This document shows positions 6,203 to 21,737 of a DNA stretch of 64,000 bases, piece by piece. The notes under the pieces were generated by a model. That model did no database searches, was not told where the DNA came from, and saw only the letters and a list, made by a program, of their open reading frames with translations. Source of the stretch: Tildeniella torsiva UHER 1998/13D (GTDB lineage: Bacteria; Cyanobacteriota; Cyanobacteriia; Phormidesmidales; Phormidesmidaceae); assembly GCA_019358835.1 (NCBI GenBank), contig JAHHIH010000002.1:186001-250000 (forward strand), read 5' to 3'. A program made the translations under genes and the position numbers. Numbering within the stretch: the first letter of the stretch is position 1; each line of letters starts with the position of its first letter.

Positions 6203-6329
6203 GTGAGTAGATGGGTAGGTGGGTAGGTGAGTAGATGGGTAGGTGGGTGGATGATTGAACGAGTAGAGGGTAGATGGATTTTGTTGCTTACTTCACCCCT
6301 GCCCACCCACACACCCACACACCCTCTAC
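6203..6329. repeat. Heptamer-type short tandem repeats forming a G-rich/C-rich inverted pair
   Basis: The left half is built from variants of GGTAGGTGGGTAGATG and the right half from CACCCACACACCCACAC-like units, so the two halves are roughly complementary. A perfect 9-base pair GTAGAGGGT (6263-6271) / ACCCTCTAC (6321-6329) could close a hairpin. It separates two convergent genes and reaches over the last bases of the DUF937 gene, where it could act as a bidirectional terminator. It resembles cyanobacterial STRR sequences. Confidence 0.7.
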
Positions 6330-6853
6330 TGGGGCGGGTTCAAAAAGCGTCCGGCAAACTTCATTACGGTGCCCAGGTCAGTGGTGTTAGGACTGTTGGA
6401 ATCCAGAAACGCCTTGAGCAGCGGGTTGCCGCTGCTGGCTGCACCGGGCTTAGTGGCCCCCATGCCCAGCAGCCCAATCACGACGGGCAATAGCTTAGGC
6501 AGCAGGGTTTGAATTGTGCCTGCATTGAGGCCGCTTTTTTGGGCGACGGCTTCAATCAGCTGCTGCTGCATTTCGGGCGGAATGGCGGCGGCCAGTGCAG
6601 CGGCACCGCCGTTTCCGGCCAGTTTGCCGAGCATGCCCTCGAGCTGACCGGTGCCTAGGGTGGTGGCCTGCTGCTTGAGGGTGGGCTGTAGCGCACCCCC
6701 TAGGGCGTTGAGAATGCCCCCCAGTTGATCGGTGTTCATGCCCTGGCTACCGGCGAGCTGCTGGACGGAGGCCATGACCGAGCTGAGCTGGTCGATGCTG
6801 CCCTGCTGGTTGGGGTTGTTAATCGAGCTAAGCACATCAAAAAACAGAGACAT
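6326..6853 (-). CDS. DUF937 (YidB-like) domain protein
   Basis: A 175-residue Ala/Gly/Leu/Gln-rich helical protein. The pattern 'MSLFFDVLSSINNP', repeated short amphipathic helices with 'QLGGILNALGGALQPTLKQQ' and the terminal 'GTVMKFAGRFLN' fit the DUF937 family, which is mostly uncharacterised. No signal peptide or membrane segment is seen. It lies 58 bases downstream of the PstS-like/DUF4912 fusion on the same strand and could be co-transcribed with it. ATG at 6853 is preceded on its strand by AAAGGAACC, a good ribosome binding site. Confidence 0.8.
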   Translation of the reverse strand: MSLFFDVLSSINNPNQQGSIDQLSSVMASVQQLAGSQGMNTDQLGGILNALGGALQPTLKQQATTLGTGQLEGMLGKLAGNGGAAALAAAIPPEMQQQLIEAVAQKSGLNAGTIQTLLPKLLPVVIGLLGMGATKPGAASSGNPLLKAFLDSNSPNTTDLGTVMKFAGRFLNPPQ

Positions 6854-6911: not shown

Positions 6912-9455
6912 CTAGGCGGCGGGCACTCGCACGTGGAGCGATCGCACCAATTGGAGCCACTGACCATCGTCGGTGAGGTAGCCCAGCTCGGCCACATAGT
7001 CGCGATCGGGCGTCCAGATCGCCACGTGGTGGTCTGGATCGCTTTCCTCCAGAATGTATTCCTGGGTAGCGTGGGGGGGCTGGTAGTCAAGCTCTAAGTT
7101 GGTGGCATCGTGAATTCGCAGGGCCATGACCCGGCCCCCCTCCTGTCGCAGGGCCTCTTTGTGGACTTGGGCGGCTTCCCAGTAGGCGTAGGCGGCATCG
7201 GCCCCGCGAGGCACCAAAATAATCTTGCTCTCTGCCCCCATGTCGGTGCGGCGGCCAATTCCAACGGCGGGTTCCTGCACTGGGTCTGCTGCGGGGGCGG
7301 CGGTGCGGCTCCACAGAGTGGCCCCCAGCCCGGCGGCGGCCACCCCTCCCGCTAGGCCGGTGAGGGAGGTTTCGGCGATTGAGCTGACTTCAGCCGGTTC
7401 AGGTGGTCGGTCACCCACTAGACCTGCGGCCCCGCCCAGGGGCGCACCGAGGATGGTGCCATTGACGGCGGCGGCAGCGGCTCCATTGGTAGGGCAGGCG
7501 GGTACGCGCACCGACTCAGATTTAGCTAGGGCTTGCCACTGGTAGTTGCTATCGACGTAGCCAACCTCCACCAGGTAGTCGCGATCATCGACGGCAATGG
7601 GCAGTTGTAGGTCGCCCTGGGGCAACAGCTCGGCGTTAAACTCTTGCAGACTGTTGAGGCGATTGCCGCTGCCGGGCATTTCGGTGACATCGTACAGTCG
7701 AGCCTTGAGGCTGCGAGAGCCCGCCTTGAGGTCATCTACGGTTGAAGGGGGCAGTTCCCAATAGGCGTAGGCATTTCTACAATCGCGGGGAGTGAGAATG
7801 ACCCGTGCTGGGGCGGCGGTGTCTGCCGGGCGGGCGATCGCCGCCGCGCCAACCCCTAAGGCACCCAAACCGGCAGCGGCGGCGGCAGCGGCCCCAGCCC
7901 CACCGGGAGTAACGCTGCTGGGACAGGCGGGCACGCGCACGTGAGCCGATCGCGCCAGGGCGTGCCAATCATTGTCGGTGCCCACGTAGCCCAGTTCGAC
8001 CAGATAGTCGCGGTCGTCTACCGAGACAGGCAGGTGGCGATCGCCCACGGCCACCGTGTCGCAGTCAAACTGGTAGGTGTGGTGGGGCGCCTGGCGGTCA
8101 ACATCGGCAATGTCGGTGACATCGTGCAGTTTGAGCGCCAGGGAGCAGTTTTGCTGGCGCAGTGCCTCCACCTCGCCTTCGGGCAGTTCCCAATAGGCGT
8201 AGGCGTCGCGGCAGTTGCGCGGCGTGAGGATAATGCGGCGATCGGCGGCTGCCGCCAGGGGAGCGGCAATCGGTGCGCGATCTTTGAGGAGCCACCAAAG
8301 CAGGCCGCCCAAGACGGGCAGTGCTAGCAGCCAGGGCCACCAGGGCAGCCCCCGCGCTGGCCCAGGAGCTGTGGTAACCGGTGCCGTTTCGTCGAGGGTA
8401 GTCTCTGGGCTAGCTTCTGGGGCGGTTTCGGACGTGGCCTCAGTCTCGGCTCCAGGGGTGGCCTCGGCGGCAGGATCGGTTGCCGCTTCGCCGGGGGCAG
8501 TTTCTGTGTCGGTGGCCCCACCGTCTGCGATCGCCGCGTTGCGGGCCGCCTCAATCAGCGCCTCGCTGTTGGGGTTGACGGCAAACCCCAGAAAGGCTAG
8601 CACGGCTGGGCTGGCGGTCTCGGGACTGTAGACGTAGGACAGGGGCTGCGAGAAGGGGTAGCGCTCGTCGTCGGGCAGGGTGTCGTGCATGGGCACAATT
8701 TTCACCGCCGGGTTGTTAAGCGCCTGCTCAGCCACGACATAGCTAATGCTGTTTTCATCGAGGTTCTCGGCGATGGTGGCAACGCTGGCCTCTGACAGCA
8801 CGGTGGCCCCTGGGGCCGACTCAAACACCCCGCTCTCAAACACCGGATAGTTGCGAAAGGCCTGGCGGGTATCGCTGTCGGCGGGCTGGTCAACCAGGGC
8901 GATGGGGGCATCTTGGCCACCGACCTCAGACCAGTTGGTAATTTCGCCGCGAAAGATTTGGGCAAACTGCTCGACGGTGAGGCTGCCTGCAAAGGGGTTG
9001 CTGGGGCTCACCAGAATGGCAATTTTGTTGCGCGACACCGGCACTTCTTGCAGCCCGGCGCTGGCTTCTTCCTCGGTGAGGCTGCGGCCGATAGCGGCCA
9101 GGTCGGCGTCGCCATCGGTGAGCGCCTGCAGGGCATTGTTGGCGCTGTCGTACTCAACGTCTACCTGGGCATCGCCGTACTGGCTAGAAAAGCGCGATCG
9201 CAGCGCCTCGTTCACCAGGCGCATGGCTTCAGAGCTCTCAATGGTCAGCTCGCTGCCGGGTTCGAGGGAAGTGGGAATTTCGACCCCCTCCAGCGGATTA
9301 GGGGTCTGAGCCCAGAGCAGGCGATCGCCCTCTAGCACAGCGGTGGCGGCCAATAGCAGGGGGGCTGCGGTCAGCCAAAGCCGCGATCGCCCTCGAAAGG
9401 TAGTCGTGCTTTGGGGGGTAGCACTGTGGCGTTTAGTACTGTGGCGGTTAAACAT
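6912..9455 (-). CDS. PstS-like periplasmic binding domain fused through a membrane helix to three DUF4912 repeats
   Basis: An 847-residue multidomain protein. Residues about 25-50 form a signal sequence or anchor ending near 'LLWAQT'. Residues about 65-305 match phosphate-type solute-binding domains: 'ESSEAMRLVNEAL', 'DLAAIGRSLTEEE', 'IFRGEITNWSEVGG', 'DSDTRQAFRNY'. A Thr/Glu/Ala/Pro-rich linker leads to a clear membrane helix ('GLPWWPWLLALPVLGGLLWW', about 370-390). Three homologous cytosolic repeats follow, each opening with I-I-L-x-P-R and A-Y-A-Y-W-E and closing with D-R-D-Y-x-x-E-L-G-Y and H-V-R-V-P: the DUF4912 pattern. The layout suggests a receptor that binds an anion outside and signals or anchors inside; this is inference. 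No transport permease is nearby. Confidence 0.8.
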   Translation of the reverse strand: MFNRHSTKRHSATPQSTTTFRGRSRLWLTAAPLLLAATAVLEGDRLLWAQTPNPLEGVEIPTSLEPGSELTIESSEAMRLVNEALRSRFSSQYGDAQVDVEYDSANNALQALTDGDADLAAIGRSLTEEEASAGLQEVPVSRNKIAILVSPSNPFAGSLTVEQFAQIFRGEITNWSEVGGQDAPIALVDQPADSDTRQAFRNYPVFESGVFESAPGATVLSEASVATIAENLDENSISYVVAEQALNNPAVKIVPMHDTLPDDERYPFSQPLSYVYSPETASPAVLAFLGFAVNPNSEALIEAARNAAIADGGATDTETAPGEAATDPAAEATPGAETEATSETAPEASPETTLDETAPVTTAPGPARGLPWWPWLLALPVLGGLLWWLLKDRAPIAAPLAAAADRRIILTPRNCRDAYAYWELPEGEVEALRQQNCSLALKLHDVTDIADVDRQAPHHTYQFDCDTVAVGDRHLPVSVDDRDYLVELGYVGTDNDWHALARSAHVRVPACPSSVTPGGAGAAAAAAAGLGALGVGAAAIARPADTAAPARVILTPRDCRNAYAYWELPPSTVDDLKAGSRSLKARLYDVTEMPGSGNRLNSLQEFNAELLPQGDLQLPIAVDDRDYLVEVGYVDSNYQWQALAKSESVRVPACPTNGAAAAAVNGTILGAPLGGAAGLVGDRPPEPAEVSSIAETSLTGLAGGVAAAGLGATLWSRTAAPAADPVQEPAVGIGRRTDMGAESKIILVPRGADAAYAYWEAAQVHKEALRQEGGRVMALRIHDATNLELDYQPPHATQEYILEESDPDHHVAIWTPDRDYVAELGYLTDDGQWLQLVRSLHVRVPAA

Positions 9456-14163: not shown

Positions 14164-14922
14164 TTAGAGAGAAATCCAGCCAAACCACGACAGGATGGTT
14201 GCGATCGCCACCAGACTGAAGAAAATAGCCAGTCCAGCGGTAACCGCCCCAGCCGCCTTGCGAACGCCATCGGGAGTCTCGATCCAGTCTCTCTGGCTAA
14301 GGCGGCGATCGGCTGAGAAGTCGTAGCCCAACGACTCCAGTTCAGTCAGGTGGTCATGGGTGTAGCGGGGCACCCGCTCAAAGGGCAGGTCGCCCTGGGC
14401 GTGCTGGGGCAAGACCCGTCGCCGCTGGTAGGGCACCGTAGCATCACCAAAACTTGTCATGTACTCTTCGCTGCCCATCAGGGCATCCACTAGCCCCTCA
14501 ACGCCCTGGGTGGCCAGCACAATTGACCAGGCCAGCGTTTCTTTGTCGTCATAGACATTGCGACCCAGCAACCGCTGCACACACAATTCTACAAAGCGGT
14601 AGTTGTTGTTGACCTCGTAGTTCCAGGTGCGAAATGCGTCGGATGTTGCCAAGCCCCGCACAAAATCTTTGACTGAAATCAAACCGCCGCGCAGCTGTGA
14701 TTCCAGCAGGGTTTGGCGATTGCTTTTCAGCATTTGTTGCTCATGGAAAATCTGTCGATAGGCCGCCGAAATCAGGGCATCCATATCTAGGGCATCCCCA
14801 TCGACAGTAGAGAAGGCTTTATCTAGGGTAAAAATCCCAGACTGCTCGTCTCCCGGCACCTCATAGCCCTCTACACGCTGGTTTTGGCTGCGGGGGACAT
14901 AGGCTAATAGCGGCAAAGTCAC
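14164..14922 (-). CDS. cpcL: Membrane-tethered phycobilisome rod-core linker, CpcL (CpcG2) type
   Basis: About 252 residues from GTG 14922. Residues about 15-150 are a PBS linker domain ('LISAAYRQIFHEQQML', 'LISVKDFVRGLATSDAF', 'FVELCVQRLLGRNVY'). The last 30 residues are a hydrophobic helix ('VTAGLAIFFSLVAIATILSW'), the mark of CpcL, which holds phycocyanin rods directly on the thylakoid membrane near photosystem I instead of on an allophycocyanin core. The GTG is chosen because GGAGG lies 9 bases upstream and the protein then starts 'TLPLLAYVPRSQNQRV', as in CpcG proteins; a longer frame reaches 15090. It has its own terminator and about 400 bases of upstream DNA. Confidence 0.9.
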   Translation of the reverse strand: MTLPLLAYVPRSQNQRVEGYEVPGDEQSGIFTLDKAFSTVDGDALDMDALISAAYRQIFHEQQMLKSNRQTLLESQLRGGLISVKDFVRGLATSDAFRTWNYEVNNNYRFVELCVQRLLGRNVYDDKETLAWSIVLATQGVEGLVDALMGSEEYMTSFGDATVPYQRRRVLPQHAQGDLPFERVPRYTHDHLTELESLGYDFSADRRLSQRDWIETPDGVRKAAGAVTAGLAIFFSLVAIATILSWFGWISL

Positions 14923-15329
14923 GACTATATTTCCTCCACTTACGAAATAAGAATCTACCTGTTTCTCAAGTCTCAGGCCCAAGTCGAAACAAAGACCTCG
15001 CCATTGTTTTTGCTGCTTAGAAAAGCTCTCAGTTGTAGCTGAATGTTTGCCACCAATGGCTAAAGCTAGCCTAAAAGATGCTGGGATCAAGCATTCTTAT
15101 TTCGACAGGGAGAGTAACAAACGGTTACGTTTCTTCAAATAGACAGGAACTCAAATATTTTCTTTTCAAAAAAGAATTGAATGCAATGCCGGGGGGCGGT
15201 GGGATGAACGTCTGATTGAATTCCTAGGCTGAATTCACCGGAGCGGGGTCAGCTTTTTGATGCAGGGTAAGAGCTGGCCAAGATTGGGATTAGAAGGTTT
15301 GGCTCCTCCTCAACGCAAGTGCCCACACA
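14923..15329. promoter_or_regulatory. cpcL upstream region with GTAAC/GTTAC inverted repeat
   Basis: About 400 noncoding bases between cpcS and cpcL. They contain GTAAC(5)GTTAC at 15114-15128; the right arm extends to GTTACGTT (15124-15131), an octamer also found upstream of cpcB at 16270-16277. It may be a regulator site for leftward cpcL transcription. A longer open frame from 15090 crosses the region but lacks a ribosome binding site. Confidence 0.4.
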
Positions 15330-15361
15330 AAACCCCTCTTCTAGAGACTGAAGAGGGGTTT
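15330..15361 (-). terminator. Strong hairpin terminator downstream of cpcS
   Basis: A perfect 12-base stem AAACCCCTCTTC / GAAGAGGGGTTT with an eight-base loop. On the minus strand the stem ends in TTTTG, about 50 bases beyond the cpcS stop. It separates cpcS from cpcL, which therefore needs its own promoter. Confidence 0.85.
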
Positions 15362-15408
15362 GCCCTTCGAGCTATGACGCTGTCTAGATGGGGAACGCAC
15401 TCAGCCCC

Positions 15409-15996
15409 TTACCAGCCAAAGGCTGAGACAGGCGCTAGCGATTGCTCTGTTTTGTTCTCGGCCTCGGCAGCTGGTGCGGCCAGCCGCGATTCGGCGCAGA
15501 ACGAGGCGGTGCTAAAGCCGCCAAACCGCTTCACCACGCTGGTGCGCAGGCGCAGGTTGGGGTTGGCAAACCAAAAGCGCTCCACTGAACTCATGGTTTC
15601 GTACTCAGTAATCAGCAGCAACCCTTCGTCACCGTCGATTTCGTAGCGGCCAATTACGGGCACAATTTCGGCGTAGCCCCGCTCGCGCAGGAGCTGGCCG
15701 CGGCTGGGGTCGTCAGCATCGGGTACCAGGGCAAACACGGTGCTGCCTTCGTGGTTCTCATCCTCTTTGTCCCAGGCCATGGCCCCTTGCCAGGTGACAA
15801 GCGCGCCACCGACGGCCAGGGCGGGATCAACCTCATGCAGGTTACAAATTTCCACCACACTGGGGTGAGCGGCATCCAATGCTTCTACCGCAATGGTCGA
15901 ACCCCCCAGCTCAGCCCGGCGAAAGGGCAGATGGTGGGTGGTTCGCTGGGAGTTCCACTGGCCCGCACTCATGCGGAAAAAGTCCATTACGTCCAT
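15409..15996 (-). CDS. cpcS: Phycobiliprotein lyase, CpcS/CpeS family
   Basis: A 195-residue lipocalin-like lyase that attaches phycocyanobilin to the Cys82/84-type cysteines of phycobiliprotein beta subunits and allophycocyanin. Family features: 'MDVMDFFRMSAGQWNSQRTT' opening, 'HHLPFRRAELGGS', the central 'WDKEDENHEGSTVFALVPD', 'PVIGRYEIDGDEGLLLITEY' and 'ERFWFANPNLRLRTSVVKR'. This is the CpcS-I type. It points away from the cpc operon and shares the 725-base regulatory gap. The last 25 or so residues are a poorly conserved Ala-rich tail. The lyase for CpcB Cys153 (CpcT) is not in this window. Confidence 0.92.
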   Translation of the reverse strand: MDVMDFFRMSAGQWNSQRTTHHLPFRRAELGGSTIAVEALDAAHPSVVEICNLHEVDPALAVGGALVTWQGAMAWDKEDENHEGSTVFALVPDADDPSRGQLLRERGYAEIVPVIGRYEIDGDEGLLLITEYETMSSVERFWFANPNLRLRTSVVKRFGGFSTASFCAESRLAAPAAEAENKTEQSLAPVSAFGW

Positions 15997-16721
15997 GGGG
16001 CAGCTCTCTAATGTCTTAACGGTTGCTTAGGGGCGTTTTCAGCATTACAAATTGAATGCAGCCGACACCAGTACAGTCGATACCGGGTCGCCATAGCTGG
16101 ATCTTACCGCTGTCTGCGGGCCATTGCAGGGGCCAGATCAGCGGCGACTACTGCAATGGCCGGGGGCTACTGAGCTCCAAATCTAGGTTAGAGAATGGCG
16201 ATCGCGCTCCTGAGGAACGTCTCTAGCCCTTGCGATCGGGGCATATTCCTGGCCCCAATGTTGCGAAATGTTACGTTACCTGAGAAGGCCTGAACCCAAT
16301 TCAAAGTCCCTAGAGTGCCCGAAATAGCAGAATTCTTTCGCTTTGCCCCCACTGTGAAGGTCACTTTTCCTTAATAACTTGTAAAAGACAAAGACACACC
16401 AGCGGTGTATAAACATCTTTGGAGGGTTAATTGAATTAGCGAAAGCCAATTCAGGCAACGGTTTCGAGGAATGTTGCGGATCCCTTACAGAGACGCCTCT
16501 CCTCCATCTCATCTGCCTTCCCTTTAAGACTGTTGAGCTGACTGTGTAGAAGCTTGAACAACCTTGAAGAAATGTAAACTAGATGAGAAAACTGAACCCG
16601 CTGATCTTTAAGATCCTTCCTATAGATTGGTTAGACAGCTCCGGCTGAACTAATGATTAACTTGGTCATTTGTGACCACTTTCAAGCAAACTCAGCGACA
16701 AAAATTAGGAGATTTGAGTCG
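15997..16721. promoter_or_regulatory. Divergent cpcS / cpcB regulatory region with long leader
   Basis: 725 bases without a credible gene between the two divergently transcribed phycobilisome genes. A weak promoter-like pair, TTGAAC (16554-16559) and TAAACT (16575-16580), has a short 15-base spacer and would give a leader of about 135 bases for cpcB. A directly repeated GTTRCG-type motif lies at 16260-16277. A minus-strand open frame (16276-16512) has no family resemblance. cpcB itself has TTAGGAGA as ribosome binding site. Confidence 0.6.
16260..16277 (+). promoter_or_regulatory. HLR1-like direct repeat upstream of cpcB
   Basis: GTTGCGAA-AT-GTTACGTT: two 8-base half-sites separated by two bases, in the layout of the HLR1 element bound by the response regulator RpaB (TTACA-type half-sites). 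Three positions differ from the consensus by A to G. It lies about 440 bases upstream of the cpcB start. Assignment is by eye and tentative. Confidence 0.3.
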
Positions 16722-17240
16722 ATGTTTGACGCATACACTAAGGTTGTTTCTCAGGCCGATGCACGTGGAGATTTCCTGTCTGGCGATCAGCTAGACGCTC
16801 TGTCTCGTGTTACCGGCGACGGTCTCAAGCGGATCGATGCTGTTAACCGCATGACCGGTAGCGCTTCCAAGATCGTGTCTGATGCCGCTCGCGCCCTGTT
16901 CGCTGAACAGCCTCAGCTCATCGCTCCCGGCGGCAACGCTTACACCAACCGTCGTATGGCTGCCTGCCTGCGCGACATGGAAATCATCCTGCGCTACGTG
17001 ACCTACGCTACCTTCACTGGCGATGCTAGCGTCCTCAACGATCGCTGCCTGAACGGCCTGCGCGAGACCTACGTTGCCCTGGGTACCCCCGGTGCTTCCG
17101 TAGCCGCTGGTGTTGAGAAAATGAAGGCTGCTGCTATTGGTATCGTTTCTGACACCAACGGCATCACCCAAGGCGATTGCAGCTCCCTGTACTCCGAAAT
17201 CGGTAGCTACTTCGACCTGGCTGCTGCAGCTGTTGCCTAG
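16722..17240 (+). CDS. cpcB: C-phycocyanin beta subunit
   Basis: 172 residues, the exact family length. With CpcA it forms the (alpha-beta) hexamers of the phycobilisome rods that absorb orange-red light. Chromophore sites are in place: Cys82 ('[12 protein letters not shown]') and Cys153 ('[11 protein letters not shown]'). Asn72 in 'PGGNAYTN' is the residue normally methylated by CpcM. The single bilin at Cys82 plus the one at Cys153 identify phycocyanin and not allophycocyanin. ATG 16722 is chosen over an in-frame upstream ATG at 16653 because it gives the canonical 'MFDAYTKVV' start and follows AGGAG. Codon use is biased as in highly expressed genes. Confidence 0.98.
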
Positions 17241-17268
17241 GTTCAGCCTAAATTGAACCTCACTTGAG

Positions 17269-17287
17269 TTGAGCCAGTTTGGCTTAA
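17269..17287 (+). other. Small hairpin in the cpcB-cpcA gap
   Basis: TTGAGCCA pairs with TGGCTTAA around GTT (8 pairs, one G-T). It lies 29 bases after the cpcB stop and well before the AAGGAG of cpcA. It lacks a T tract, so mRNA stability or translational spacing is more likely than termination. Confidence 0.4.
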
Positions 17288-17340
17288 TTCGCATTGCCTG
17301 TTCATTTGCTGTGAAGACAACTTAAGGAGAATCCTAGACT

Positions 17341-17829
17341 ATGAAAACCCCATTAACCGAAGCTGTTGCAGCAGCTGATTCTCAAGGTCGCTTTCTGAGC
17401 GCTTCTGAGCTACAAGTTGCTTTTGGTCGTCTGCGTCAAGCCACCTCTGGTCTAGAAGCTGCCAAAGCTCTGACCAACAAAGCTGATTCTCTAGTCAGCG
17501 GCGCTGCTCAAGCTGTGTACAACAAGTTCCCCTACACCACCCAAATGCAGGGGGCTAACTACGCTTCTGACGAGAAGGGCAAAGGCAAGTGCGCCCGTGA
17601 CATCGGTTACTACCTCCGCATGGTCACCTACTGCTGCGTAGCTGGCGGTACTGGCCCTATGGATGAGTACCTGGTTGCTGGTCTTGACGAAATCAACAGC
17701 ACCTTCGAACTGTCCCCCAGCTGGTACGTGGAAGCTCTGAAGTACATCAAAGGCAACCACGGTCTGTCTGGTGACGCAGCTTCTGAAGCTAACTCCTACA
17801 TCGACTACGCCATCAACGCTCTAAGCTAG
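17341..17829 (+). CDS. cpcA: C-phycocyanin alpha subunit
   Basis: 162 residues, the exact family length. Canonical start '[20 protein letters not shown]' and the phycocyanobilin attachment Cys84 in '[18 protein letters not shown]'. It pairs with CpcB in the rod hexamers; its bilin is added by the CpcE/CpcF heterodimer encoded at the end of the same operon. Spacing from cpcB is 100 bases with a good ribosome binding site AAGGAG. A large hairpin directly follows the stop codon and probably reduces read-through into the linker genes. Confidence 0.98.
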
Positions 17830-17839
17830 GTTGGCCATT

Positions 17840-17898
17840 TGCCCGGAGGGGCAGACAGTTGTTAGCGCATTGTTAGCGATTGTTTGCTGCTCCGGGCA
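17840..17898 (+). terminator. Large attenuator hairpin between cpcA and cpcC
   Basis: TGCCCGGAG (17840-17848) pairs perfectly with CTCCGGGCA (17890-17898); after a 2x2 internal loop, GCAGACAG (17851-17858) pairs with the TTGTTTGC at 17880-17887, including G-T pairs. The loop holds a direct repeat of TTGTTAGCG. It is followed by TTGTTGTAT, not a true T tract, so partial termination and 3'-end protection of cpcBA mRNA are expected. Confidence 0.75.
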
Positions 17899-17931
17899 TT
17901 GTTGTATCTATACACGCCCAAGGAGGCAACC

Positions 17932-18747
17932 ATGGCAGTAACCACTGCGGCGGGACGCCTTGGCGTTTCGCCCTACGATGAGTCGATGCGGGTTGAGCTG
18001 CGGCCTAACTGGCTCGAAGGTGATGTGGAGGCAGTAATTCGTGCTGCTTACCGTCAGGTCTTTGGTAACCAGTACATTATGGCCAGCGAGCGCAATACCA
18101 GCGCCGAGTCTTTGCTTCGGCAGGGAGATATTTCAGTTCGGGATTTTGTGCGGGCTTTGGCCCTGTCTGACCTCTATCGGGATAAGTTTTTCCTGAGCGG
18201 GCCGCAGAATCGCTTTATTGAGCTGAACTACAAGCACCTGCTGGGTCGGGCGCCCTACGGCCAGGACGAAATCGCTTTTCATACCGACCTTTATAACACT
18301 GACGGCTACGCAGCGGAAATCAGCTCCTATATTGATTCCCAAGAGTACCGCGATAACTTTGGGGACAATGTTGTGCCCTACTATCGTGGTCACCTGACCC
18401 AGCGGAGCCAAAAGACGGTCGGGTTTACCCGCTTCTTTCAGCTCTATCGGGGCTACGGCACTAGCGATCGCGCCCAGGGGGGCGTTCGTTCGCAGCTCGT
18501 GTCTGAAATCGCTAGAAACTCTGCATCGCCCGTGGGCAGCGGAGCGACTGGGGCCGCCATTGTCGGTGGTTCTGGGGGCGATCGCGAGAAGCTCTACCGG
18601 GTGCGGGTTACCCAGGCCACTAGGCCCGGCAGCCCCCAGGTGCGTCGTACCTGCACCGAGTTTTTGGTGCCCTACGAGCAGCTGTCTCGCAAACTTCAAC
18701 AAGTTAACCGCTCTGGCGGTCGGGTAACTAAAGTCGACCTGGCCTAG
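17932..18747 (+). CDS. cpcC: Phycocyanin-associated rod linker (first copy)
   Basis: 271 residues. Residues about 15-150 are a PBS linker domain ('[19 protein letters not shown]', '[17 protein letters not shown]', '[15 protein letters not shown]') and the C-terminal 55 residues a CpcD-like domain ('[18 protein letters not shown]', '[15 protein letters not shown]'). It sits inside the rod and joins phycocyanin hexamers while tuning their absorption. ATG 17932 follows AAGGAGGCAACC, so the upstream in-frame start at 17884 is discarded. It is one of two tandem, clearly paralogous linkers, so rods probably contain three hexamers. Confidence 0.93.
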
Positions 18748-18782
18748 GCTGCGGCTTTAATACCTTTCTGGCGGAGTGCTTG

Positions 18783-18800
18783 GCCTTGCTTTGGCAAGGC
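18783..18800 (+). other. Hairpin between the two cpcC copies
   Basis: GCCTTGC (18783-18789) pairs perfectly with GCAAGGC (18794-18800) around a four-base loop, 36 bases after the first cpcC stop, in a 206-base gap. It is followed by TGTGTTGG, so it is not a classic terminator. Confidence 0.5.
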
Positions 18801-18953
18801 TGTGTTGGTCATCTCTCTGGGGTGGGGTTGATTGGGGTTTAGGCCTCAGCTTGCTCGACTCTAGGGAGAACTAACGTAAAGTACTGCGCCATTTTTTTAT
18901 TCTGCTGTGTGGATTGAGCCCGTGCTCACTGTGTTGATAAGGAGGATAATCCT

Positions 18954-19829
18954 GTGCCTATTACAACGGCAGCATCCCGGTTGGGAACCGCTGCGTTCGA
19001 TGAAACCCTGCCCGTAGAGCTACGCGCCAACTGGACCCCCGACGATGCTGAGGTGGTGATCCGGGCCGTGTACCGCCAACTGCTGGGCAACGACTATTTG
19101 ATGAAATCGGAGCGCTTGGTTGGTGCCGAGTCGCTGCTCAAGAATGGCTACATTAGCGTGCGCGACTTTGTGCGGGCGGTGGCCAAGTCTGAGCTGTACA
19201 AAGAGAAGTTTTTCTACGGCAACTTCCAGACCCGCGTGATTGAGCTGCACACCAAGCACCTGCTGGGCCGCGCCGTCTACGTCGAGTCTGAAGTGGTTGA
19301 GCACCTCGATCGCTACGAGACCCAGGGCTACGACGCTGACGTTGACTCGTTCATCGACAGCGAAGAGTACCAGGCCAACTTTGGCGACAATGTCGTGCCC
19401 TACTACCGCAGCTTTGTCTACCAAGCGGGGCAGCGTTCGGTGGGTTTCACCCGCATGTTCCAAATGTATCGGGGCTACGCCACCAGCGATCGCGCCCAGG
19501 CCGGCGGTAAAAAGTCTCGCCTGGCCGGCGAGCTGGGTCGCAACACCTCTTCGTCGATCATTAGCCCCACCAGTGCCGCTGCTGGCTGGTCGGCTCAGGC
19601 CAATAAGCTGACCACCCCCAGCCAGGCCCTCGGTGGCTCTACCCCCTACGGTGCCACTGCTGGCAAGGTTTACCGCATTGAGGTGGTGGGGGCCAACCTA
19701 CCCCGCTATCCCAAGGTGCGGCGGATCAACACCGCCTACCTGGTGCCCTATGAGCAGCTATCGGCCAAGCTTCAGCAGATTCATAAGCAGGGTGGTCGGG
19801 TAACCAGCGTTACCGCTGCCAGCCTCTAG
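18954..19829 (+). CDS. cpcC2: Phycocyanin-associated rod linker (second copy)
   Basis: 291 residues with the same order as the first copy: PBS linker domain ('[19 protein letters not shown]', '[17 protein letters not shown]', '[15 protein letters not shown]') and a C-terminal CpcD-like domain ('[18 protein letters not shown]', '[16 protein letters not shown]'). The spacer between domains is longer and rich in Ser, Thr and Ala. GTG 18954 is the start because it follows AAGGAGGATAATCCT and gives '[14 protein letters not shown]' as in other CpcC proteins. It would occupy a different rod position from the first copy; which is distal cannot be told from sequence alone. Confidence 0.93.
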
Positions 19830-19838
19830 GTTAGTCAT

Positions 19839-19870
19839 ACGCTAGGCAAATCCTTGGATTTGCCTAGCGT
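19839..19870 (+). terminator. Perfect 15-pair hairpin between cpcC2 and cpcD
   Basis: ACGCTAGGCAAATCC (19839-19853) and GGATTTGCCTAGCGT (19856-19870) are exact inverse complements with TT between them. It starts 10 bases after the cpcC2 stop and is followed by GGTTTCT. It probably attenuates transcription before cpcD-cpcE-cpcF, whose products are needed in small amounts. Confidence 0.8.
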
Positions 19871-19919
19871 GGTTTCTATCGCCGTATTCGAGATCTCGCA
19901 ACGACCAGGAGAGTTTCCT

Positions 19920-20150
19920 ATGCTCGCTCAAAACGCCTTTGGTAGCCAATCCGCCGCCGGCAATCGTGTTTTTCTCTACGAAGTTGAGGGGCTGCGTCAA
20001 AACGACGCGACCGACCAAAACAACTATCCCATCCGCCAAAGCGGCAGCACCTTCATCAAGGTGCCCTACAGCCGTATGAACGAAGAAATGCAGCGCATTG
20101 TCCGCATGGGCGGCAAAATCGTCAGCATTCAACCCCTGTCTGCCGACTAA
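19920..20150 (+). CDS. cpcD: Small rod-capping linker CpcD
   Basis: 76 residues, homologous to the C-terminal domain of the two CpcC proteins ('RVFLYEVEGLRQ', 'STFIKVPYSRMNEEMQRI', 'GGKIVSIQPL'). It caps the outer end of the rods and limits their length. ATG 19920 is preceded by AGGAGAG at the right distance; a longer in-frame start at 19854 falls inside the preceding hairpin and is rejected. Confidence 0.95.
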   Translation: MLAQNAFGSQSAAGNRVFLYEVEGLRQNDATDQNNYPIRQSGSTFIKVPYSRMNEEMQRIVRMGGKIVSIQPLSAD

Positions 20151-20191
20151 ACCCCGAGCAGATTTAGCGAACGCTGGAGACAAACTGAGGT

Positions 20192-21025
20192 ATGGCACAG
20201 GATCCGCAACCGCTGGTCAACGCTGAGGGAGAATCCCTAACGATCGATCAGGCCCTTGAGAACCTTCGCCAAACCGCTGATACGGGATTGCGCTACTATG
20301 CCGCCTGGTGGCTAGGGCGCTTTCGCGTGTCTATTCCCGAGGCGATCGCAGGTTTGGTGTCGGCGCTTGAGGATGAGGGCGATCGCGCCCCCGATGGGGG
20401 GTACCCATTACGCCGCAATGCGGCTCGGGCTCTGGGTAAACTGGGCGATCGCACCGTTGTTCCGGCCCTGATTCAGTGTTTAGGTTGTAACGACTACTAC
20501 GTGCGTGAGGCTGCCGCCCAGGCGCTAGAATCGTTAGGCGATCCCCAGGCGATTCCAGCGCTGCGATCGCTGCTGGCGGGCGGGGTTGCCGCTGCGGTTG
20601 CGGTGCCCGACAAGCCCCACCTGGTGCAGCCCTACAACGCGGTGCTAGAGGCCCTGGGCACCCTGGGTGCCACCGATGCGATCGATGAAATCAGCCCATT
20701 TTTAGAGCATGAGGTGGCCCAGGTGCAAAATGCCGCCACCCGCGCCCTCTATCAGTTGACGGGGGAGGCGACCTACTGCGATCGCCTGGTACAGCGTCTG
20801 CAAGAGCCCAACCTGCAACTGCGGCGATCGGCGATGATGGATTTGGGTGCGATCGGCTACCTGCCCGCCGCCCAGCCCATTGCCGCCACCCTGGCCGAAA
20901 ACAGCCTCAAGCTGATCGCCCTCCAGGGCGTTTTAGAATCTCACCTGCGGCAGACCGGGTTTCCCAAATTTGGGCTCACGGATGACGCTCGCCAGGTATT
21001 GGTATTAATGGATGAGCTGCTGTAG
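20192..21025 (+). CDS. cpcE: Phycocyanobilin lyase subunit CpcE
   Basis: 277 residues built from HEAT-like (PBS lyase) repeats: 'GLRYYAAWWLGRFRV', 'PLRRNAARALGKLGDRTVVPAL', 'YYVREAAAQALESLGDPQAIPAL', 'LQLRRSAMMDLGAIG'. With CpcF it forms the heterodimeric lyase that attaches phycocyanobilin to Cys84 of CpcA. It starts 41 bases after cpcD and overlaps or closely abuts cpcF. The 'YYAAWWLG' region is a conserved family signature. Confidence 0.95.
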   Translation: MAQDPQPLVNAEGESLTIDQALENLRQTADTGLRYYAAWWLGRFRVSIPEAIAGLVSALEDEGDRAPDGGYPLRRNAARALGKLGDRTVVPALIQCLGCNDYYVREAAAQALESLGDPQAIPALRSLLAGGVAAAVAVPDKPHLVQPYNAVLEALGTLGATDAIDEISPFLEHEVAQVQNAATRALYQLTGEATYCDRLVQRLQEPNLQLRRSAMMDLGAIGYLPAAQPIAATLAENSLKLIALQGVLESHLRQTGFPKFGLTDDARQVLVLMDELL

Positions 21026-21098
21026 GTTCTGGCGCATTGCAGCTCAAAAGAATCAACTGGGTCAATTGGGTATTAATAGGGCTGGAGAACGGTTAGGC

Positions 21099-21737
21099 GT
21101 GGGTGCGACAGTAGCAGAGCTAATTCGGGCGGTTGAGATTGCTGATTCTAAGGGCGCAATGATTGTTGCGGTCAATCAGCTGGTGGCGGCTCAAGATGTG
21201 GCCGCGATTCCTACCCTAATTACCGTGCTGGGCTATAACAACCCCGGCGCGGCGGTGGCGGCGGTGGATGGGCTGGTGGCGCTGGGCAGTGAGGCTGTGC
21301 CTGCTCTGCTGGAACAAATTGATGGTTATAACTACGGAGCCAGGGCTTGGGCCATTCGTGCCGTGGCCCTGATCGGTGACCCCCGCGCCCTGCCCGTGCT
21401 GCTAGAAACGGCGAAAGGGGATTTTGCCCTGAGCGTGCGCCGCGCCGCCGCCCGAGGGTTAGGCACTATCGATTGGTCTAAGCTGACCTCTGACCAGTCG
21501 GTTTCATCTCAACGGGAGGTGCTTGCCGTACTCATTGGCGCTGCCCAAGATCCAGAATGGGTGGTGCGCTACGCGGCGATCGCCGCCTTAGAGGGTTTAG
21601 CAAAGGCTCTAGTGAAGCCTGAAACTCAAAAACCACCGATTCTTGACTGCCTCGATCAAGTCTTTCACCACGACGAAACGCCTGCTGTGCAGGCTCGGGC
21701 CTGTAGGGCCTTAGAGGTCTTGGGTGAGCCCAGTTAA
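21099..21737 (+). CDS. cpcF: Phycocyanobilin lyase subunit CpcF
   Basis: About 212 residues, the usual CpcF size, made of HEAT-like repeats ('AWAIRAVALIGDPRALPVLL', 'LSVRRAAARGLGTIDW', 'VVRYAAIAALEGLAKAL'). It completes the CpcE/CpcF lyase. GTG 21099 is preferred: CTGGAGAAC lies upstream at normal distance and the protein then begins 'GATVAELIRAVEIADSKG', as family members do. The frame is open further up to an ATG at 21012 that overlaps the end of cpcE, but the extra 29 residues do not resemble CpcF. It is the last gene of the operon; no clear terminator follows. Confidence 0.88.
   Translation: MGATVAELIRAVEIADSKGAMIVAVNQLVAAQDVAAIPTLITVLGYNNPGAAVAAVDGLVALGSEAVPALLEQIDGYNYGARAWAIRAVALIGDPRALPVLLETAKGDFALSVRRAAARGLGTIDWSKLTSDQSVSSQREVLAVLIGAAQDPEWVVRYAAIAALEGLAKALVKPETQKPPILDCLDQVFHHDETPAVQARACRALEVLGEPS

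Follow-up and report, generated by a model that had tools for sequence, protein, structure and literature searches.

A cyanobacterial receptor-like family that joins a PstS-like outer domain to exchangeable, probably inner parts

The 64,000-nucleotide stretch of Tildeniella torsiva UHER 1998/13D analysed here (contig JAHHIH010000002.1, positions 186,001 to 250,000, or C28:186001-250000 in our numbering; hereafter the window) contains a minus-strand gene at 6912-9455, a single open reading frame of 847 codons with an ATG start, whose product carries a PstS-like binding domain, one membrane helix and three DUF4912 repeats. Our main result reaches beyond this single protein: it belongs to a cyanobacterial family in which the same periplasmic-binding-protein (PBP) ectodomain is followed by a helix and by inner parts that are exchanged between members. 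This grouping, the fused PBP-helix-X family, was defined in the present analysis, and no description of it was found in the open-access literature searched (subscription papers and preprints lay outside that scope). With a probability of about 0.48, we read the window protein as a receptor or anchor in the cell envelope that serves enzymes of carbon storage.

Exchangeable inner parts behind a common ectodomain

The original prediction had placed all three kinds of module in one chain, and this was borne out by Pfam and AlphaFold2. PBP_like_2 matched residues 69-294 (E 1.2e-30, 107.7 bits against a cut-off of 27), and DUF4912 (PF16258) matched three stretches (239.6 bits against a cut-off of 29.4, E 7.2e-72). 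Each of the three repeats scored above the curated cut-off in a profile search of the genome, and a purpose-built DUF4912 profile set their limits at residues 401-511, 545-654 and 738-847. An AlphaFold2 model of the whole protein, built on a 21-row alignment, reached a predicted local distance difference test score (pLDDT) of 74 and a predicted template modelling score (pTM) of 0.40; we therefore trusted the individual parts and not their mutual arrangement. The model showed an N-terminal helix at residues 24-43, where a hydrophobic stretch spans 23-41, a PBP domain with block means of 81-96, a linker at 313-371 with values below 50, a helix at 373-391 and three beta domains mostly near 90 with short dips. 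Near-full-length matches with 59-84% identity occurred in 13 of 25 other genomes of the same genus (G001-G025); among the remaining genomes some hold only pieces, several of them at contig ends. Together with the Pfam scores, these matches mark a conserved gene, far beyond chance. An ortholog in Nodosilinea sp. FACHB-131 (L053) is 88% identical over the ectodomain.

The ectodomain was matched in an open frame of at least 500 residues in at least 69 of the 195 genomes of the class, and 143 distinct proteins of the family were gathered. One to eight DUF4912 repeats are carried by 100 of them; a glycogen phosphorylase domain follows the helix in 13 (two cut or frame-broken) and an acetyl-CoA synthetase domain in two, both fused enzymes being identified by Pfam or NCBIfam, and a domain of 131 residues is the sole inner part in three. 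The other 25 have none of these inner parts: some are cut short, two are soluble, and some carry WD40, TPR, coiled coil or Ala-rich tails. In the genome of T. torsiva itself the ectodomain occurs in four long frames, namely those of the window protein and of paralogues on contigs C38 (L038:5788-7887; 699 residues, one DUF4912 and the 131-residue domain at the C-terminus), C19 (897 residues, one DUF4912) and C48 (L040:7347-11060; 1237 residues). In the last of these, PBP, WD40, helix, TPR and DUF4912 follow one another in this order, and the WD40 repeats, lying between ectodomain and helix, probably form a periplasmic propeller. The window protein fits the family in every part: its ectodomain falls within the fused group of the tree described below and has G123, D195 and R197, and it is followed by one helix and an inner part.

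Several further arrangements were seen among these loci. Acetyl-CoA synthetase fusions lie at L048:9299-13090, L205:377-4567 and L088:10070-13870, with broken frames in L088; the usual motifs of the enzyme were seen by eye in L048 only, and a ClpC-like gene, named from sequence, lies upstream of the fusion in L048 and L088. The PBP-helix protein at L043:6731-11812 (1693 residues) contains a very long coiled coil and three C-terminal helix-hairpin-helix stretches. A ParM/actin-like gene and a small conserved gene stand beside PBP receptors at L038:8543-9921, L049:8270-9636 and in L167, Pfam ALP_N being matched for the L038 copy only. Finally, table 1 of PMC4933709 lists, once, a cyanobacterial metacaspase joined to PBP_like_2, perhaps another fusion of the same ectodomain.

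Tethered phosphorylases, DUF4912 and carbon genes

Among the phosphorylase fusions, the cofactor site is covered by eleven fused rows (Table 1) and by one downstream piece of a frame-broken gene, and two more fused rows stop short of it. The cofactor lysine, which we take to be Lys680 in rabbit numbering, is replaced by Ile, Met or Ala in 12 of 12 sequences, while both soluble phosphorylases that cover the site have Lys. The basic residues of the phosphate site, presumably Lys568, Arg569 and Lys574, were also affected, the first being lost in 12, the second in 10 and the third in 2 of the 12. Since the cofactor lysine is lost throughout, the membrane-tethered domains are, judged from their sequences, probable pseudoenzymes. 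They are still 45-59% identical to the soluble phosphorylase L092_7, which suggests that they may have been kept for something other than catalysis. The loss of the lysine in every tethered phosphorylase that covers the site thus offers a clear, testable case of a pseudoenzyme acting as sensor or scaffold.

The DUF4912 repeats, in turn, resemble fibronectin type III (FN3) domains. The model of repeat 1 (pLDDT 92.8) matched the FN5 domain of Lar in Foldseek (2.2e-04) and aligned with FN3 domains at Z values up to 9.8, with a root-mean-square deviation (rmsd) of 4.0 over 92 residues. In this predicted model, which for the fold comparison was that of repeat 1 only, DUF4912 is a fibronectin-III-like sandwich with an added helix. 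No convincing sequence match accompanies the common fold: Pfam gave no FN3 family for the window protein, and a search for sequence relatives of DUF4912 in the PDB returned one chance-like row at E 2. An FN3-like fold in common shows no function. It would nevertheless agree better with docking than with anion sensing, the role that had been proposed for DUF4912 and for which we found no support; sensing, if any, would sit in the outer domain. Sugar binding, raised by the glycogen context, was considered as well, and the FN3 fold neither proves nor excludes it. A DUF4912 gene was present in 78 of 78 cyanobacterial genomes searched, mostly in frames of about 430 residues. In the genome of T. torsiva, L041 combines Rho_N with DUF4912 and, by eye, has no signal peptide; compared with the Rho_N-DUF4912 protein of about 430 residues, for which the missing signal peptide was noted in L041 only, the window protein places three repeats behind a membrane helix.

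Gene neighbourhoods were compared across 133 receptor loci. Some genomes are represented twice (e.g., L089/L140 and L092/L135) and some loci were chosen because they were long or phosphorylase-fused, so that the frequencies are biased; carbon-gene neighbours were sought with single query sequences, which makes absences soft, and phosphoketolase, D-lactate dehydrogenase, polyphosphate kinase and glgC were named from sequence and not by family search. A protein of 131 residues (e.g., L134:8156-8551, VTDLKVHSK..., ending in DTYLEDNxGELTLSV) is a neighbour in 30 of the 133 loci and also stands as a domain at the C-terminus of 24 receptors, 21 from among the 100 with DUF4912 and three without; it had no match in Pfam, NCBIfam or the PDB, and a lectin-like fold was weighed as one possibility for it. 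That the neighbour is also a receptor domain we counted in favour of a docking role. Genes for a PBP-phosphorylase and a PBP-DUF4912 protein flank the gene of the 131-residue protein in L042, L133, L134, L089, L193 and L196. In Leptolyngbya FACHB-8 (L092) the order is phosphoketolase, D-lactate dehydrogenase, PBP-phosphorylase, a 104-residue copy of the small protein, another PBP protein, glucose-6-phosphate isomerase (Pfam/NCBIfam), a frame of 96 codons and a soluble phosphorylase, and this locus is repeated in genome G161 (L135). Phosphoketolase, D-lactate dehydrogenase, PBP-phosphorylase and the small protein recur in L198 (G186, of the same genus as G161). In a genome of another family (G171, L183:1-12001), phosphorylase, D-lactate dehydrogenase, two PBP receptors, an EF-hand-like protein, phosphoketolase and polyphosphate kinase were recognised by eye. 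The phosphoketolase/D-lactate dehydrogenase set was thus seen in a small share of the loci, from three genomes that belong to two families. By eye, glgC was also seen beside the C38 paralogue. It is these neighbours (phosphoketolase, D-lactate dehydrogenase, isomerase, phosphorylase, glgC) and the phosphorylase-like and acetyl-CoA synthetase fusions that connect the family with carbon metabolism.

On this basis, a signal peptide would place a PstS-derived Venus-flytrap domain in the periplasm as part of a single-pass inner-membrane protein, and a disordered linker and one helix would lead to three FN3-like DUF4912 repeats that could serve as docking sites in the cytosol. Members of the receptor/anchor family differ in the inner part, which is a DUF4912 array or a phosphorylase-like, acetyl-CoA synthetase, TPR or coiled-coil module; as the fusions and neighbours suggest, these would most likely recruit or steer enzymes of carbon storage and fermentation at the membrane. 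Most phosphate contacts of the outer pocket are missing in this genus, and this member would probably bind another ligand or act as an anchor. Venus-flytrap sensors such as the BvgS-type kinases carry a solute-binding domain before a membrane helix. The window protein is like them in its outer binding-protein fold, single helix and inner output part, but Pfam, read up to E 10, showed no kinase, cyclase, GGDEF or methyl-accepting part in it. A wider proposal, which we hold tentatively and rate as less likely than not, is that cyanobacteria have a receptor superfamily that arose from a soluble phosphate-binding protein and relays a signal from outside the cell directly to the metabolism of carbon stores. 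Its inner parts would be a pseudo-glycogen phosphorylase (likely a glycogen or phosphorylase sensor), an acetyl-CoA synthetase or DUF4912 docking arrays, with a common small partner domain, and the window protein would belong to the members with docking arrays, its pocket having been re-tuned or silenced. If true, one membrane protein family would tie an outside substance to the use of glycogen and to fermentation, with neither a kinase nor a transcription factor in between, and DUF4912 would gain its first functional handle.

Outer pocket, topology and competing readings

The closest solved structure to the outer domain is Sll0540 of Synechocystis (PDB 9l8j; Z 30.2, rmsd 1.8 over 238 residues, 35% identity), which is listed as a PstS homologue in PMC11221513 and PMC3564720. 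In a quick tree of 168 rows (midpoint root for drawing only, identical rows included), the fused receptors group together (144 rows; support of 98 in the Shimodaira-Hasegawa-like approximate likelihood ratio test, SH-aLRT), with soluble Sll0540-like proteins as their sister group and apart from the PstS proteins of Bacillota and of the same genome (SH-aLRT 100). Two short rows labelled soluble (L074, L095) fall within the fused group. The phosphorylase fusions form one supported group of 20 rows (100), and the window protein and L053 share a long branch (0.81). This tree supports the view that the receptor ectodomain arose from a soluble protein of the Sll0540 type. All eight soluble relatives in the comparison, in frames of 295-329 residues, have S123, R190 and G195, none of which is present in the window protein. 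To PstS proper (TIGR02136, 4gd5, E. coli PstS) the window protein is similar in fold and overall sequence, with Z 26.0 to phosphate-bound 4gd5. It differs from PstS in its lost contact residues, its score under the TIGR02136 cut-off, the absence of PF00528 permeases from the window and its place in a separate part of the tree.

The pocket was compared by sequence alignment and not by coordinates. The phosphate contacts given for E. coli PstS in PMC10846223 are T10, F11, S38, D56, R135, S139, G140 and T141, of which F11 and D56 were left unscored. The pocket of the window protein reads A77, A105, G123, R124, Q190, S194, D195, T196 and R197; T10, S38, R135, S139, G140 and T141 thus correspond to A77, A105, Q190, S194, D195 and T196, and two of these six contacts are kept. 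The protein has accordingly lost the equivalents of Arg135 (Gln at 190) and of Thr10 and Ser38 (both Ala). S123, R190, S194 and G195 are present in 12 of 12 PstS rows of Bacillota and in 8 of 8 soluble cyanobacterial rows. The two distant PstS rows of the same genome have S123, S194 and G195, but Pro is aligned at 190, possibly through a shifted alignment, so that column 190 alone is an unsure mark of phosphate binding. Among 144 receptor rows, which include the window protein and two soluble rows, G123 occurs in 123, Asp or Glu at 195 in 132 and R190 in 130; across 153 rows, S194 is retained in 145, D195 in 133, T196 in 141 and R197 in 150. In the close group of the window protein (15 rows, including two copies of its gene), Gln or His stands at position 190 and S194, D195, T196 and R197 are kept throughout, while L021, L023 and L026 of the same genus retain Arg at 190. 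Read from these alignments, most of the family appears altered in the pocket relative to the soluble proteins, and the branch of the window protein altered further. Because the Arg135, Thr10 and Ser38 equivalents are lost and S123G and G195D/E are widespread in the family, phosphate binding by this outer domain, which the original prediction had described as phosphate-type, is doubtful. That prediction had stated that a lack of anion-binding residues in a structural model would speak against it. In the alignment, three side chains that contact phosphate in PstS are missing from this protein, and most of the family has other residues at two further pocket positions, which counts in part against the prediction; S194 and T196 are kept. 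With a carboxylate near two or three arginines, the pocket might suit a zwitterion or a ligand with hydroxyl groups.

The cytosolic position of the repeats, likewise proposed before, was supported by the comparison with sister proteins. Repeat 1 follows directly after the membrane helix, at the place taken in sisters by a phosphorylase or an acetyl-CoA synthetase. We counted Lys and Arg in the 15 residues after and before the helix in those 138 of the 144 receptors whose membrane segment was clear: the number was higher after the helix in 113, equal in 15 and lower in 10; the window protein by itself gives a weak signal (2 against 1 basic residues). The enzyme domains in place of the repeats and the positive-inside bias in 113 of 138 favour repeats on the inside; for repeats 2 and 3 we only infer this position.

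Several observations weigh against an inner scaffold for carbon-storage enzymes. Of the ten receptors with reversed bias, four are enzyme fusions, two with phosphorylase (L134, L133) and the two with acetyl-CoA synthetase, which weakens the argument for the inside where it is most needed. The Ala-rich stretch 522-540 scores no less hydrophobic than the membrane helix (2.16 against 2.84, lower values being more hydrophobic), and an extra membrane pass in the Ala-rich linkers, the main doubt about the topology, could exist; the AlphaFold2 model shows no helix at 522-540. Carbon enzymes were found near a minority of the 133 loci (GlgP 11, XFP 4, D-LDH 4 and GlgC 2, as raw counts with no genome-wide background). 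In five of the 11 GlgP loci these are soluble or ectodomain-less pieces, and among these five L135 repeats L092, L187 is a contig-end fragment and L196 is a piece of a broken fusion. The window receptor itself has a zinc peptidase and a DUF937-like gene as neighbours and no carbon-storage gene around it. The long branch, finally, could reflect a new ligand, but a loss of function would explain it just as well.

A true phosphate sensor, whose outer domain binds orthophosphate and whose repeats signal phosphate status, would account for the PstS fold with its Z values of 30.2 to 9l8j and 26.0 to phosphate-bound 4gd5, for S194, T196 and R124 in the window protein and for the Arg190 of most receptor rows. 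We consider it distinctly unlikely, given the missing Arg190, Thr10 and Ser38 equivalents in the window protein and the family-wide S123G (123 of 144) and G195D/E (132 of 144). Regulation by phosphate via Pho boxes was likewise rejected, scores of at least 12 in a scan for tandem Pho-box-like repeats being found upstream of 6 of 142 receptors (the 142 include the window protein) against 19 of 426 first-order Markov shuffles, which is no excess. The lost contacts and the long branch could instead mean that the outer domain no longer binds a ligand and merely holds the inner scaffold in place from the periplasm. Such a pure anchor would hardly explain why S194, D195, T196 and R197 are kept across the 153 rows and in all 15 rows of the close group, and we rate it as somewhat unlikely.

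A surface protein, with some or all FN3-like repeats outside as adhesive or wall-binding modules, comes into view because FN3-like repeats are common outside cells, because the stretch 522-540 could be a further pass and because of the ten reversed receptors. Against it stand the enzyme domains at the same place in sisters, the positive-inside bias, DUF4912 in L041 without a signal peptide, and the Ala-rich segments, which also precede the acetyl-CoA synthetase domain and are disordered in the window model; we judge it improbable. An extra solute-binding subunit feeding a Pst transporter is scarcely credible. The PstS fold and the listing of Sll0540 as a PstS homologue would suit it, but the protein has a membrane tether, a large inner part and a changed pocket, and lies outside the PstS rows of the tree. 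Furthermore, PF00528, which covers PstA/PstC-type permeases, was matched 43 times in the genome but never within the window, while the stand-alone PstS-like gene of the genome (C35:4940) adjoins two such permeases (C35:6261 and 7208). On the NCBIfam PstS model TIGR02136 the receptor scores 98 against a cut-off of 206.6. The earlier claim that PstA, PstC and PstB genes are missing nearby thus stands for the permeases; for PstB, none was seen by eye among the open reading frames at 1-22 kb, no separate PstB search having been made. These results support a receptor or anchor rather than a transporter part, in line with the sensor or anchor first proposed. Our preferred reading remains a receptor or anchor in the envelope that would recruit or govern enzymes of carbon storage.

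Gene features and surroundings

Table 1 Features of the window receptor, its downstream neighbour and the phosphorylase fusions (aa, amino acid residues)
Feature	Position	Strand	Basis or remark
N-terminus with signal peptide or signal anchor, aa 1-50	9306..9455	-	hydrophobic core at about aa 24-43
Outer PstS-like domain PBP_like_2, aa 66-304	8544..9260	-	Pfam, structure match, pocket table
Outer linker, aa 313-371, Ala/Thr/Glu/Pro-rich, disordered	8343..8519	-	pLDDT <50
Single membrane helix WWPWLLALPVLGGLLWWLL, within aa 372-391	8283..8342	-	modelled helix 373-391; charge-free hydrophobic segment
DUF4912 repeat 1, aa 405-512, fibronectin-III-like	7920..8243	-	Pfam; model pLDDT 92.8; FN3 matches
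Linker between repeats 1 and 2, aa 515-544, Ala/Gly-rich	7824..7913	-	no helix, pLDDT <50 in model
DUF4912 repeat 2, aa 545-654	7494..7823	-	profile searches, AlphaFold2
DUF4912 repeat 3, aa 738-847	6915..7244	-	profile searches, AlphaFold2
DUF937-like gene	6326..6853	-	58 bases downstream of receptor gene, same strand
PstS-like ectodomain with tethered phosphorylase domain	L042, L133, L134, L089, L090, L092, L141, L193, L194, L195, L198		all eleven cover the cofactor site

The zinc peptidase gene lies upstream of the receptor gene. The DUF937-like gene on its other side scored 18.3 bits with Pfam DUF937, under the cut-off of 25.4; a DUF937 neighbour occurs within five genes in 14 of the 133 receptor loci, and in 12 of 14 placements it is the next gene (+1) on the same strand. 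About 5-12 kb from the receptor, at window positions 14164-21737, genes resembling phycobilisome linkers or subunits and HEAT-repeat lyases were recognised by eye from their translations.

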